DNA of 64,000 nt from Clostridia bacterium (GTDB lineage Bacteria > Bacillota > Clostridia > Christensenellales > Aristaeellaceae): positions 62,001-126,000 of the forward strand of contig JAFROK010000049.1 in NCBI GenBank assembly GCA_017429695.1, written 5' to 3'. A program made the position numbers and the translations under genes. Below, in pieces: positions 11,748 through 18,626 of this stretch. A model generated the notes under the pieces. The model made no database searches, was not told the origin of the DNA, and worked only from the letters and a program-made list of their open reading frames with translations. Each line of letters starts with the position of its first letter. Position 1 is the stretch's first letter.

Positions 11748-12332
11748 TCAGAAAACGCCGGTCACAAATATTTCAATGCCGATCGCAATCAGGATAATTC
11801 CGCCGAGGACGGAAGCCCATCCGGAGAGTTTTGTCCCGAACTTCCGGCCGATCAGGAGGCCGGCGATACAGATTACAAACGTGACTGCCGCAATAATCAG
11901 GGCACAGACCAGCGCCATCGCAAAATCATATTCCGCGATTGTAAAACCCACGGAAAGAGCGTCGATGGATGTTGCAATCCCCTGAACAAGCAACGCCATA
12001 ATTCCGACGCCTGGTTTTTCTTCGGCACCGTTTCTGTTCCGGATTCCTTCAATCAGCATTTTCCCGCCGATAAACAGCAGCAGGATCAGCGCAATCCAGG
12101 GGATCCATTTCTCAAAGGCGTGAAAGTGCTGTACGATTGTGTGGACACAGACCCAGCCAACCATCGGCATCAGCGCCTGGAAGAAGGCAAATACGCCGGC
12201 AATCAGGCCCATTTTGCGCCTGTGCATGTGCGGTTCATTCAGCCCGTTGGCCAGTGATACCGAGAACGCGTCCATGGCCAGTCCGACGCCCAGCAACGCG
12301 CTGTTAAAAAAATACACCAGACTCCAGTCCAT
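11748..12332 (-). CDS. mntP: manganese efflux pump MntP
   Basis: 194 residues with six predicted membrane helices. Conserved Asp-containing helices: 'GVGLAMDAFSVSLANGL' (TM1) and 'GIATSIDALSVGFTIA' (TM4), the hallmark of the MntP/YebN family that exports Mn2+. Start chosen at MDWSLVYFF, with GGGGGA about nine bases upstream. The leader contains an 8-bp GC stem CCGGCCGG with a 5-base loop (12360-12380) near the ribosome site. I do not find a yybP-ykoY riboswitch in its own leader; the candidate riboswitch belongs to the divergent permease gene. The -10 TATGAT (around 12389-12394) lacks a good -35, so activation by a regulator is possible. Confidence 0.92.
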   Translation of the reverse strand: MDWSLVYFFNSALLGVGLAMDAFSVSLANGLNEPHMHRRKMGLIAGVFAFFQALMPMVGWVCVHTIVQHFHAFEKWIPWIALILLLFIGGKMLIEGIRNRNGAEEKPGVGIMALLVQGIATSIDALSVGFTIAEYDFAMALVCALIIAAVTFVICIAGLLIGRKFGTKLSGWASVLGGIILIAIGIEIFVTGVF

Positions 12333-12461
12333 GCAAGAATCCCCCTGTGAAGCATGCACCCGGCCGGGTAAGCCGGCCGGCGTTTTTATATCATACACCA
12401 TTTCCTCCGGATGGGAAACATCCGTTTCAAAAACCTTCCGTTTTCAGAATCCGGCGCTGCC

Positions 12462-12490
12462 TTGACGGAAGCATGCCTGTATGCTATATT
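12462..12490 (+). promoter_or_regulatory. promoter of the riboswitch-controlled permease
   Basis: TTGACG (12462-12467) and TATATT (12485-12490), 17-base spacer. Transcription would start near 12497, immediately before the riboswitch aptamer. Confidence 0.8.
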
Positions 12491-12498
12491 GAAACTCG

Positions 12499-12620
12499 GT
12501 ATGAGGGAGTAGCTGGCGTTTTGGCGTAATGTATTCCGTCAGGACGGGATTTTTTCCCCGGAGTATGTTCAAAGCAGCAAGACTTTTACCGCAGCTTTGT
12601 TGTGGTGAAAGTCTTTTTTA
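12499..12620 (+). promoter_or_regulatory. yybP-ykoY (manganese) riboswitch candidate with expression platform
   Basis: The transcript start carries the two signatures of the yybP-ykoY class: GGGAGTAGC (12505-12513) and GCAAGAC (12577-12583). The flanks GGTATGAG and CTTTTACC can form P1, and AATGTATTCC can pair with GGAGTATGTT through Watson-Crick and G-U pairs as an internal stem. The 3' part of P1 also belongs to a 14-bp terminator stem (12579-12592 with 12602-12615) followed by T's, so aptamer folding and termination are mutually exclusive: metal binding should switch the gene on. This class senses Mn2+ (established knowledge). It leads into the permease gene at 12654. Confidence 0.85.
12579..12620 (+). 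terminator. riboswitch-controlled intrinsic terminator
   Basis: AAGACTTTTACCGC / GTGGTGAAAGTCTT, 14 pairs including G-U wobbles, 9-base loop, then TTTT. Its 5' arm overlaps the aptamer closing stem. Confidence 0.85.
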
Positions 12621-12653
12621 TTTCCACAGCAGAAGATCATGGAGGATTTGCCG

Positions 12654-13922
12654 ATGAAAATCTTTGCGCTGGTGCTTTTTATCCTGATGTATATCCTGAT
12701 GATTGCAAAATCCAAATATAAGCCATTTTATGCACTGGGTGTTGCCCTTATTTATCTGGTTTCCGGAATTCTTCCGCTGGACAGCCTGGGAGCCGCCATT
12801 AACTGGAACGTCATTATGATGATCGCGGGCACCATGATCATCGTCCATTTCTTCATTCAGTCCCAGATGCCGAACCGGCTGGCGGATATGCTGCTTGAAA
12901 AATCAAAGAATGTGATGTGGGTCACAATCCTGATGTCGCTGTTTTCCGGCCTTATCTCCGCGTTTATTGACAATGTGGCCACTGTGCTGATGGTTGCGCC
13001 GGTCGGACTGGCCATATGCAAAAAGCTGAAAATTAACCCGGTGGGAATGATTCTGTCTATTGCCGTTTCCTCTAACCTGCAGGGAGCGGCAACGCTCGTC
13101 GGCGACACAACATCCATCATGCTGGGCGACTTTGCCGGCATGAATTTCATGGATTTCTTCTGGATGCGCGGACGGCCGGGTATCTTCTTTGCGGTGGAAC
13201 TCGGTGCGCTTGCCACCGTTCCGGTCATGATGTTTTTGTTCCGGAAAGACAAGGAGCCAGTTTCATCCAGGGAAAAGGCTGCTGTCACCAATTATGTACC
13301 GACCGTTATGCTGATCCTGATGGTGCTTGGCCTGATTGTTGCCTCCTTTATTCCGGATACCCCGGAGATGATCAATGGTTTCATCTGCTGCGGCCTGGCT
13401 GTTGTCACCGTCATCATTGATTTGCTTCAACACCGCAAAGCGAACGATACGGCCGAAGCATTCAAGAGCCTTGATTTTGAGACTCTGGGCCTTCTGATGG
13501 GCCTTTTCATCGTCATCGGCGGCCTGACCAAGGTGGGAATTATTGACGACTTTGCCGACCTGATCGTTCGGCTCGGCGACAATAACATTTTCCTGCTCTA
13601 TACGATTGTTGTCTGGGGGTCCGTTCTGATCTCCGCCTTTGTGGACAATATTCCGTATGTGGCTACGATGCTCCCGGTCCTGACGGCTGTTACTGCCTCG
13701 CTGGGAATCGAGCCGTACCTGCTTTATTTCGGCCTGCTGACCGGTGCCACCCTGGGCGGCAACATCACGCCGATCGGTGCGTCCGCCAATATTACCGCCG
13801 TAGGTATGCTGAAAAAGGAAGGTTATACCGTTTCGTTCGGAGACTTTATGCGGATCGGTATTCCCTACACCTTCACCGCCGTGCTGGTGGGATACGTGTA
13901 CCTCTGGATCTTCTGGGCCTGA
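12654..13922 (+). CDS. ArsB/NhaD (SLC13-type) ion permease under riboswitch control, candidate Mn2+ exporter
   Basis: 422 residues, about 11 hydrophobic helices, with the two inverted-repeat signatures of the ion transporter superfamily: 'SAFIDNVATVLMVAPVGLAI' with 'GAATLVGDTTSIMLG', and 'SAFVDNIPYVATMLPVL' with 'GATLGGNITPIGASANI'. Known relatives export arsenite, exchange Na+/H+ or carry dicarboxylates. The start at MKIFALVLF has GGAGGA seven bases upstream (12641-12646). The candidate manganese riboswitch in the leader and the divergent mntP gene suggest this member handles manganese; that is inference. No neighbouring ars genes are seen. Confidence 0.85.
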   Translation: MKIFALVLFILMYILMIAKSKYKPFYALGVALIYLVSGILPLDSLGAAINWNVIMMIAGTMIIVHFFIQSQMPNRLADMLLEKSKNVMWVTILMSLFSGLISAFIDNVATVLMVAPVGLAICKKLKINPVGMILSIAVSSNLQGAATLVGDTTSIMLGDFAGMNFMDFFWMRGRPGIFFAVELGALATVPVMMFLFRKDKEPVSSREKAAVTNYVPTVMLILMVLGLIVASFIPDTPEMINGFICCGLAVVTVIIDLLQHRKANDTAEAFKSLDFETLGLLMGLFIVIGGLTKVGIIDDFADLIVRLGDNNIFLLYTIVVWGSVLISAFVDNIPYVATMLPVLTAVTASLGIEPYLLYFGLLTGATLGGNITPIGASANITAVGMLKKEGYTVSFGDFMRIGIPYTFTAVLVGYVYLWIFWA

Positions 13923-16224: not shown

Positions 16225-16284
16225 CATATGGCCGCTTTATCAGATGTTTTTCTGAAAAATCCGCCGGACAGGGGGAATCATCCG

Positions 16285-16644
16285 ATGAATATTTACGAAT
16301 CCGCAGAAGATTACCTGGAGCAGATCCTGATGCTGCTGGAACAGAAAGGCCATGCCCGCTCGGTTGATATTGCCGCGGGCCTGGATGTTTCCAAGCCGTC
16401 CGTCAGCGTGGCCATGAAAAAACTGCGGGAGAACGGATACATCAATATGAGCCCGGACAATCTGATCTCTTTGACGGACAAAGGGTATGCGATTGCCCGG
16501 AAGATATACGACCGGCATCAGGCGCTGACCAAATACCTGATCCAGATCGGCGTTCCGGAAGGAATCGCCCGGGAGGATGCCTGCAAGATCGAGCACGACC
16601 TTTCCGAGGAATCCTTTGCGGCCATCTGTGAACAGATTAAATAA
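16285..16644 (+). CDS. DtxR/MntR-family metal-dependent repressor
   Basis: 119 residues: winged helix ('SVDIAAGLDVSKPSVSVAMKK') and helical dimerisation domain, without the SH3-like third domain. Metal ligands by alignment with MntR/DtxR: Asp9 and Glu12 in 'ESAEDYLEQI', His78 in 'YDRHQALTKYL', and Cys100-x2-Glu103-His104 in 'DACKIEHDLS'. The Cys at the position of MntR Glu99 resembles DtxR/IdeR Cys102, while Asp9/Glu12 are MntR-like. So it could answer to Fe2+ or Mn2+. Start at MNIYESAEDY, with GGGGG about 9-13 bases upstream. Probably represses itself and feo through the operators listed here. Confidence 0.88.
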   Translation: MNIYESAEDYLEQILMLLEQKGHARSVDIAAGLDVSKPSVSVAMKKLRENGYINMSPDNLISLTDKGYAIARKIYDRHQALTKYLIQIGVPEGIAREDACKIEHDLSEESFAAICEQIK

Positions 16645-17786: not shown

Positions 17787-18566
17787 TTATCCCAGGGAAA
17801 CGTCCAGGATCATCATCAATACAAAACCGAGGGCAAACAGAACGGTACCGGTATTGGAATGAGTTCCTTCCGACATTTCCGGAATCAGTTCTTCAACGAC
17901 CACATACATCATGGCCCCGGCTGCAAACGACAGGAAATACGGCATGACCGGCGTCACCAGTCCCGCAGCCAGGATCGTCAGGGCCGCGGCAACAGGTTCC
18001 ACCGCACCGGAAAGAACACCCATCCAAAACGTCTTCTGCCGGGGCATTCCTTCCGCCTGCAATGGCATGGAAACAATCGCTCCCTCCGGAAAATTCTGGA
18101 TGGCGATTCCCAGGGCCAGGCTAAGCGCCCCGGCTGCGGAAATGCCTGCTGATCCGGCCTGCAGGCCGGCATAGACCACTCCGACGGCCATTCCTTCCGG
18201 AATGTTATGAAGCGTAACCGCCAGAATCAGCTTTGTGGTACGCTTCAGCCCGCTCTGCGGTCCTTCATTCTGCCGGTCCATATGCATATGCGGTATCACA
18301 ATATCCAGCAGCAGCAAGAATCCGATACCGGCCAGGAATCCGACCGCAGCCGGCAGAAAGGCAAGCGACCCCATATCAGCGCTGCTGTCCAGCGCGGGTT
18401 GCAGCAGGCTCCAGAAGGAAGCCGCAACCATCACGCCGACCGCGAATCCGGTCAGTGCTTTCTGGATTCCGCCGGATAATTCCTTTTTCAGAAAAAACAC
18501 CATCGCCGCGCCCAGGCTGGTGCCCAGGAACGGAATCAGGATTCCTTCAATCGCTGCAATATTCAT
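17787..18566 (-). CDS. ZIP-family divalent metal transporter
   Basis: 259 residues from the ATG with AGGAG eight bases upstream (a closer ATG at 18572 would add two residues). Eight predicted helices, a His-rich loop 'PHMHMDRQNEG', and the ZIP metal path motifs 'VTLHNIPEGMAVGVVY' (TM4) and 'IQNFPEGAIVSMPL' (TM5). Imports Zn2+, Fe2+ or Mn2+ (GufA/ZupT-like branch). Lies 89 bases downstream of the AraC-type gene with a terminator between them, so its expression may partly depend on read-through. Confidence 0.92.
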   Translation of the reverse strand: MNIAAIEGILIPFLGTSLGAAMVFFLKKELSGGIQKALTGFAVGVMVAASFWSLLQPALDSSADMGSLAFLPAAVGFLAGIGFLLLLDIVIPHMHMDRQNEGPQSGLKRTTKLILAVTLHNIPEGMAVGVVYAGLQAGSAGISAAGALSLALGIAIQNFPEGAIVSMPLQAEGMPRQKTFWMGVLSGAVEPVAAALTILAAGLVTPVMPYFLSFAAGAMMYVVVEELIPEMSEGTHSNTGTVLFALGFVLMMILDVSLG

Positions 18567-18592
18567 CGTCATCTCTCCTGTACGTCTCCGGG

Positions 18593-18626
18593 AAAAATCG
18601 GGATGCCGGTACGCTTCGGCATCCCG
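18593..18626 (-). terminator. terminator between the AraC-type gene and the ZIP gene
   Basis: Minus-strand stem CGGGATGCCG / CGGCATCCCG (18617-18626 with 18599-18608), loop of eight, followed by ATTTTTC. Confidence 0.8.

Follow-up and report, generated by a model that had tools for sequence, protein, structure and literature searches.

A P4-less variant of the yybP-ykoY manganese riboswitch precedes an IT-superfamily permease, a candidate Mn2+ exporter, in Clostridia

Introduction

The manganese riboswitches of the yybP-ykoY class, among them those of L. lactis yoaB and E. coli mntP, have an L1 loop with the sequence GGGAGUAGC, an L3 loop with UCA and the Mn-sensing A, and the motif GCRAGAC, all of which recur in a leader found in the window, the 64,000-nt stretch of clostridial DNA analysed here. 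The L3 adenosine, A41 in L. lactis and A48 in X. oryzae, is reported to be the discriminator of Mn2+ (PMC6754395, PMC9190785), and in L. lactis, as in the window, a strand of helix P1 is common to the aptamer and the terminator (PMC11087558, PMC6754395). Unlike the classic members of the class, the window leader has no P4 helix, carries two mismatched positions inside P1, and lies below Rfam detection. A three-way-junction member has been reported from S. pneumoniae (PMC9495176).

Among Rfam families, SSRC10 alone (RF02617, Streptococcus pyogenes) matches the window leader to a meaningful degree (27.9 bits, E 0.0017); unlike the leader it is filed as an sRNA, and its cut-off of 56 is not reached. 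This RNA was mapped by RACE and ends in an intrinsic terminator; its listed neighbours are SPyM3_0439 and a putative calcium transporter, and a remark that it was seen with a 3' probe would place it on the strand opposite the transporter gene (PMC3675131). Compared with window 12500-12620, it looks like the terminated leader of a yybP-ykoY-class riboswitch filed as an sRNA, a reading against which the 3'-probe remark speaks.

The gene behind the window leader encodes a permease that can be compared with several described transporters. It aligns over 410 profile positions with the arsenite/H+ antiporter ArsB (10tp, L. ferriphilum), the hairpin asparagines of which contact As(OH)3 and the H+-coupling residues of which are given as Asp112, Asp148, and Asp370 (PMC13381914). 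With the NhaD and NhaB Na+/H+ antiporters it has the IT superfamily in common, and with NhaB the acidic hairpins, but an Mn switch lies upstream of the permease. The Mn2+ efflux pump MntP resembles it in genetic setting, since the same switch precedes mntP in genus-mates and mntP is the neighbour of the permease in the window, but the two belong to different Pfam families and have no shared match. Among the titles and beginnings of abstracts listed, no description was found of a yybP-ykoY switch on an ArsB/NhaD/CitMHS permease; the 2015 class surveys (Dambach, Price) and Martin 2019 lie outside that scope and may mention one, and the passages on yybP and on ArsB in a paper that contains both treat them apart (PMC8402239).

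The locus and its leader

A promoter-like site (TTGACG-17-TATATT, 10 of 12 matches) at 12462..12490 on the + strand predicts that transcription begins near 12497, the very base at which the aptamer opens; counting both strands, positions 12330-12680 hold two such sites, against a mean of 0.3 in shuffles. The aptamer, assigned from covariance models, alignment, and pair covariation as a yybP-ykoY (Mn2+) variant without helix P4, occupies 12497..12592 (+) and is made up of helices P1 (12498-12505/12583-12590), P1.2 (12512-12515/12575-12578), P2 (12516-12519/12524-12527), P3.1 (12528-12537/12560-12569), and P3.2 (12546-12549/12555-12558), with loops L1 at 12506-12512 and L3 at 12538-12544, all on the + strand. 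By alignment, the adenosine at 12541 (+) in L3 corresponds to the Mn2+-sensing A41 and A48, the role being that described for L. lactis and X. oryzae (PMC6754395, PMC9190785).

The preliminary description had recognised the class by two signatures, and both can be read in the + strand, the L1 motif GGGAGTAGC at 12505-12513 and GCAAGAC at 12577-12583. It had also stated that a terminator has bases in common with the closing stem, which is borne out by fold and sequence: an intrinsic terminator (12579..12623, +) consists of 17 pairs (12579-12615) followed by the T-run TTTTATTT, and P1 contributes its 3' strand (12583-12590) to the 5' arm of this hairpin. This overlap would be the expression platform of an ON switch, with the ON direction taken from other members of the class. 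The region from 12480 to 12625, which includes the terminator, folds with a z of -5.2, and 0 of 200 shuffles were as good.

A Shine-Dalgarno sequence, GGAGG, is found at 12641..12645 (+), and the permease gene at 12654..13922 (+), which starts 61 bp from the end of the aptamer, encodes an IT-superfamily protein of 422 aa that profile searches place in Pfam CitMHS and also ArsB. The mntP gene (11748..12332, -; Pfam/NCBIfam) is divergent from it; both genes lie where the preliminary description had put them, and no riboswitch was found upstream of this genome's own mntP. Two further genes lie 2-5 kb downstream of the permease, one for an MntR-like regulator of the DtxR family (16228..16644, +; 2.3 kb downstream), which reaches the Pfam cut-offs and misses the NCBIfam MntR cut-off, and one for a ZIP-family metal transporter (17787..18620, -, start approximate; Pfam/NCBIfam). 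Positions 12360-12380, between mntP and the riboswitch promoter, read on the + strand as a G+C-rich hairpin without mismatches, with a T-run; on the - strand this hairpin would stand at the beginning of the mntP leader.

Assignment to the Mn2+ riboswitch class

Covariance model R1 was built from alignment A2, which holds 23 leaders, the window and 22 others with both motifs, and omits L026, L044, and L045 as near-copies. R1 finds the E. coli mntP leader (1463-1576 of L143; 30.5 bits, E 6e-8), where the Rfam model RF00080 also matches, and does not find the E. coli alx leader. RF00080 itself found nothing in the window leader, even with E allowed to rise to 10, nor did it match the permease leaders given to it (some at the gathering score, some up to E 1). 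The preliminary description had named a comparison with this Rfam model as one check and a score below threshold as a refutation, and by that rule the silence of the model would count against the call. As a sole test RF00080 is unsound here and was dropped, because the E. coli mntP leader, a validated member, scores 41.6 bits and so falls below the RF00080 cut-off of 45; likewise, on five loci of a second bacterial class that share L1, L3, and GCRAGAC it finds nothing up to E 1. Rfam annotation therefore likely misses members of the class. Below its cut-off, RF00080 matches the mntP leaders of genus-mates and others at the places found by R1 (L167, L215-L217, L252, L253).

Model R2 was made from 30 leaders (11 of mntP and 19 of P-type ATPase genes), none of which precedes a permease, yet these leaders were gathered with the permease-based R1; as R2 is free of permease leaders, circularity is lessened. 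In a search of 670 kb, R2 gives the window 73.4 bits and an E-value of 4.2e-18 (E-values of both models are rough). It was given 100 sources, namely the window, 77 of the 80 main homologue loci, later loci, many of them already known from R1 (L083, L088, L090, L100, L187, L188, L190, L276, L280-L292), and E. coli alx. Up to E 1 it returned 47 matches, the window and 46 places in the 99 other sources. Forty-five of these places lie upstream of permeases on the coding strand, representing 43 distinct leaders because L276/L292 and L283/L285 are the same places twice, and the remaining one lies upstream of E. coli alx (16.7 bits, E 0.23), a known Mn-riboswitch gene.

With the R2 match, pair covariation, and motif conservation, the call of an Mn2+-class riboswitch is well supported. 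Judged from sequence, the leader almost certainly belongs to the yybP-ykoY class, and expression of the permease would very probably be Mn-induced, by analogy with other members of the class, from which Mn2+ sensing is taken.

Structure and conservation of the aptamer

With R1 as the guide for an alignment of 101 aptamers (99 distinct rows), pairing is kept in 93.0% of pair cells, and among the 99 distinct aptamers 25 of the 27 pairs show double changes, a result that no shuffle or slide comes near. This alignment leans to the R1 model, with the exception of the pair 12512-12578, which is absent from the model and is G-C in 88, A-U in nine, and G-U in two of the distinct aptamers. In a MAFFT alignment of the 23 leaders, 91.5% pair, 19 of 27 pairs show double changes, and the 12512-12578 pair is invariant. 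Covariation thus keeps helices P1, P1.2, P2, P3.1, and P3.2. The Mn-sensing L3 adenosine, A12541 in the window, is A in 101 of 101 aptamers, and the L1 consensus GGGAGUA and the 3' AGAC of GCRAGAC (alignment columns 9-15 and 203-206) are equally invariant.

A four-way junction with P4 was not found, the linker at that place measuring at most 7 nt in 85 of the 101 aptamers, the window included. P4 is not treated as required, because a three-way-junction member has been reported and because P4-less leaders precede mntP in genus-mates. By eye, the f131 leaders (L280-L288), which belong to the second class, have a P4-like hairpin and apparently no P2, the reverse of the form seen in the window.

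A scripted check for a terminator that takes in the P1 strand was passed by 19 of 31 leaders, a count that leaves out L004 and L033; the L004 terminator is visible by eye. The tail of L090, a leader that passed, is poor in T beside the stem, while among the failing leaders a hairpin with a T-run is visible by eye in L024-L026, L031, and L076. Others that failed (L041, L043-L045, L049, L052, L088) seem to have another expression platform.

Genes behind the switch

R1 matches (E 0.01) are present in 158 of 391 genomes of the class to which the window belongs. The downstream gene, defined as the longest frame starting at most 600 nt from the switch, was assigned at 69 places, which are no random sample because nearly all were among the highest-scoring matches and L182, L183, and L184 were picked by hand (L184 was already known as the G099 permease). 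These 69 comprise 21 CaCA-type exchangers, 19 P-type ATPases, 18 OadB-like proteins, three MntP, two ABC ATPases, two SPFH proteins, one KUP, one HlyD-like protein, one permease, and one place with no gene. Pfam was run on five of the proteins and the remainder were assigned by clustering and motifs, and the rare genes were given putative names by eye. OadB-like genes (related to the beta subunit of Na+ decarboxylases) stand directly behind the switch in L115, L117, L126, L134, and 14 more, and SPFH-domain proteins, named by eye, in L165 and L173.

In the genus of the window, 14 of 45 genomes have a switch match. The gene behind it is mntP in seven, the permease of the window in one, a CaCA-type exchanger in three, a Na/Pi cotransporter in one, and a UDP-GlcNAc 2-epimerase-like gene in two (L212, L254), all but mntP being named by eye; the mntP match of G044 has an internal stop, and in G005 a CaCA-type gene is followed by mntP. 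In close relatives, the element therefore precedes the Mn exporter gene mntP itself. Because mntP matches occur in 35 of the 45 genomes and many genomes are incomplete, complementarity between the permease and mntP in the genus is not claimed.

The CaCA-type exchangers behind the switch (L112, L120, L153, and 18 more, together with L213, L214, and L219 in the genus) are possible Mn2+/Ca2+ exporters. To our knowledge, neither CaCA-type nor OadB-like genes are known as Mn exporters, and because they account for 21 and 18 of the 69 loci, the switch alone does not name the substrate of the protein behind it.

Family and key residues of the permease

The window permease scores 201.7 bits against the Pfam CitMHS cut-off of 31.9 (PF03600), which places it in CitMHS and the IT superfamily, and 46.9 bits against Pfam ArsB. 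No NCBIfam cut-off for ArsB (58.3 versus 457, 55.7 versus 415, and 53.9 versus 760) or for NhaD (24.3 versus 80) is reached. The best NCBIfam match of the protein is to the magnetosome transporter MamN, whose model matches 63 of 63 members of the permease family, yet in the window protein this match has 81 bits against a cut-off of 500; the DASS model also matches 63 of 63 members and is below its cut-off in the window protein. The label of an ArsB/NhaD-type permease, given in the preliminary description, calls for care: the protein belongs to the superfamily and has CitMHS and ArsB matches in Pfam, but stays below the ArsB, NhaD, and MamN cut-offs of NCBIfam.

Alignment to ArsB predicts two hairpin motifs in the permease, D106-N107 and D331-N332. 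N107 and N332 align with the metalloid-site asparagines N111 and N337 of ArsB, and the permease gains an aspartate beside each (D106 for A110 and D331 for N336). Conversely, D112, D370, and K374 of ArsB are V108, T366, and N370 in the permease, while ArsB D148 aligns at low posterior with D151 and is perhaps kept. Position 106 is D in 62 of 63 permeases and E in one, and D331, N107, and N332 never vary, whether a switch is present or absent. The Asp-Asn pairs do not mark Mn, because they are equally invariant in switch-less homologues and are also kept in a relative of 32% identity. To judge from these alignments, the aspartate beside each hairpin asparagine makes a cation the likelier substrate, ahead of As(OH)3 and anions, without singling out Mn2+. 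The picture of hairpins and an elevator would be carried over from ArsB by analogy.

Recurrence among homologues

In the main set of homologues, R1 places the switch on 29 of 80 (48-81% identical), 22 of which belong to R1's own alignment, and R2 on 28 of the 77 that it was given; in this set L048 has no upstream sequence and L025 and L026 come from one assembly. A count of homologues with the riboswitch had been proposed in the preliminary description, and on these numbers recurrence is well supported. A second set gave an R1 match in three of 19 loci, at least six of which repeat contigs of the main set. All 33 R1 matches, the window included, are on the coding strand upstream of the permease, in L004 through a Na/Pi cotransporter gene. 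Ten more distant homologues (L101, L103-L111) gave no switch match, and a search of 220 plasmid records returned no homologue at 60% identity or above.

Within the class sample, 29 genomes encode a homologue at E 1e-90, and five of them, the window included, have the switch. Control by Mn is not universal, because no switch was found on 51 of the 80 homologues (one of them without upstream sequence) or in 24 of 28 class-sample genomes when the window is left out. Among the switch-less homologues are L083, which is 78% identical and comes from the genus of the window, and several at 72-79%, and no alternative element was found upstream of the 28 that were read by eye.

In the second class, family f131 has the switch at eight of eight permeases, which are 38-40% identical; six of the matches have E 0.0021 or better, and the two weak ones (0.0063 and 0.0097) keep GGGGAGTAGC intact with one base of GCRAGAC changed. 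Outside the class, family f168 has it at one of four loci (of the other three, one has 208 nt upstream and one a run of N), and it was found at 0 of 19 other examined loci, with G557 left out.

In a quickly built tree of 63 permeases, of which 22 have the switch and 41 lack it, the label changes at least 12 times, seven of these changes being forced by well supported branches, and shuffled labels change 18.4-18.5 times on average. This count fits either a repeated origin of the pairing or an old pairing that was often lost, and either one argues against a single recent accident.

Neighbourhoods of the permease genes

Neighbours were taken from loci where the script had placed the permease; 129 frames of at least 120 residues were listed and 105 scanned, with 24 omitted by hand as likely spurious, long, or repeated. 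Among the 25 of 118 families listed, none is matched by more than three of the 105 neighbours, and no ars or nha family is matched by two or more; rare ars or nha cases may exist, because the families listed are 25 of 118. An ars or nha operon context, which in the preliminary description would have told against the manganese reading had homologues consistently shown it, is not supported by these neighbourhoods. In L038 an MntR-like gene lies 6 nt before the permease gene, in L042 mntP is divergent from the permease, and in L090 a CorA gene follows 12 nt downstream.

In L004 (1024-4222), a gene for a Na/Pi cotransporter with a PhoU domain lies between the switch and the permease, and L003 (2732-4266) retains a remnant of the start of such a gene (29 residues, 86% identical). 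The permease of L201 is followed by a gene related to the Na/Pi cotransporter, and in G036 (L251) a Na/Pi cotransporter gene, named by eye, follows the switch on its own. Of 164 loci, three were found to have the Na/Pi gene. About 600 bp upstream of the riboswitch of L003, a Gut-1 RNA (L003:2049-2121) scores above the Rfam cut-off.

Proposed mechanism and alternative readings

RNA polymerase would start at the first base of the aptamer. While Mn2+ is scarce, the weak P1 would give up its 3' strand to the intrinsic terminator and transcription would stop at about 12620. As Mn2+ rises, L1 and L3 would dock around an ion held by A12541 and stabilise P1, so that the terminator could not form and the permease would be made. 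The permease would then work alongside MntP, exporting Mn2+ against H+ or Na+. At the level of sequence, the RNA, its structure and class, the terminator overlap, and the recurrent pairing with the permease are established. The account as a whole, a P4-less Mn2+ switch controlling an IT-superfamily permease that most likely exports Mn2+, is considered probable, and export of Mn2+ by the permease is held to be probable to the same degree; the transported ion, the direction, and the coupling are inferred. Against export of Mn2+ stand the absence of a switch upstream of the window's own mntP and the Na/Pi gene or remnant between switch and permease in L004 and L003.

Three other substrates or roles have to be weighed. 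The permease may be a Na+/H+ or similar cation-proton antiporter that aids Mn2+ efflux or pH in Mn stress and carries no Mn2+ itself. Hairpin residues Asp146 and Asp404 matter in KpNhaB, also of the IT superfamily (PMC9408914), D106 and D331 may do likewise, the permease has a weak NhaD match of 24 bits, and the E. coli mntP switch is reportedly linked to alkalinisation (PMC9603457). This role is nonetheless unlikely, as the NhaD match stays short of the cut-off of 80, no recurrent nha neighbours appear among the 25 of 118 families listed, and Na+ stress alone would presumably not call for an Mn switch.

Export of Ca2+, or of Ca2+ and Mn2+ alike, under a switch that answers to both ions, is a similarly improbable reading. 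The three-way-junction relative from S. pneumoniae is reported to bind Ca2+ tighter than Mn2+, with Mn2+ activating transcription better (PMC9495176, citing Martin 2019), and the window aptamer likewise leaves no space for P4; the same switch also stands before genes for CaCA-type exchangers and P-type ATPases, and the related SSRC10 is listed beside the putative calcium transporter (PMC3675131). Set against this, the same P4-less form precedes mntP in seven genus-mates, and an MntR-like gene or mntP adjoins the permeases of L038 and L042.

Still less probable is export of an anion (phosphate, citrate, or its Mn2+ complex) with which Mn2+ would leave or be kept soluble. The Na/Pi cotransporter genes or remnant at L004, L003, L201, and G036 would fit such a role, as would CitMHS as the best Pfam family and the DASS matches in all 63 members (below cut-off in the window), but the SNT motif reported for DASS hairpins (PMC13381914) is Asp-Asn here, and a Na/Pi gene occurs in only three of 164 loci. 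That the leader is a chance hairpin or belongs to another RNA class, as the silence of RF00080 on the window and on the permease leaders given to it might suggest, is very improbable, since R1 and RF00080 meet at the E. coli mntP leader, RF00080 matches the mntP leaders of genus-mates at R1 places below its cut-off, and the comparison of the fold with shuffles, the pair covariation, the R2 match, and the invariant adenosine argue against a chance motif.

Export of Mn2+ by the permease is thus preferred, and its extension to the family is, on balance and with slightly more reserve, also favoured: a branch of IT-superfamily permeases from at least two classes of one phylum, which carry ArsB/CitMHS annotations and have Asp-Asn in both hairpins, may be a family of Mn2+ (or Mn2+/Ca2+) exporters recurrently under Mn riboswitches. 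As far as we know, such a branch would be the first Mn2+ exporter family in the IT superfamily.

Implications

The Rfam cut-off hides members of the yybP-ykoY class, that of E. coli mntP included. Behind such switches lie riboswitch-controlled orphans, among them the CaCA-type, OadB-like, and Na/Pi cotransporter genes and the permease, which become testable candidates for a part in Mn2+ or Ca2+ homeostasis. Through its pairing with the switch, the permease family, labelled in databases as arsenic, citrate, or sodium transporters, acquires a probable substrate, and if the reading is true, the IT fold joins the known Mn2+ exporters.
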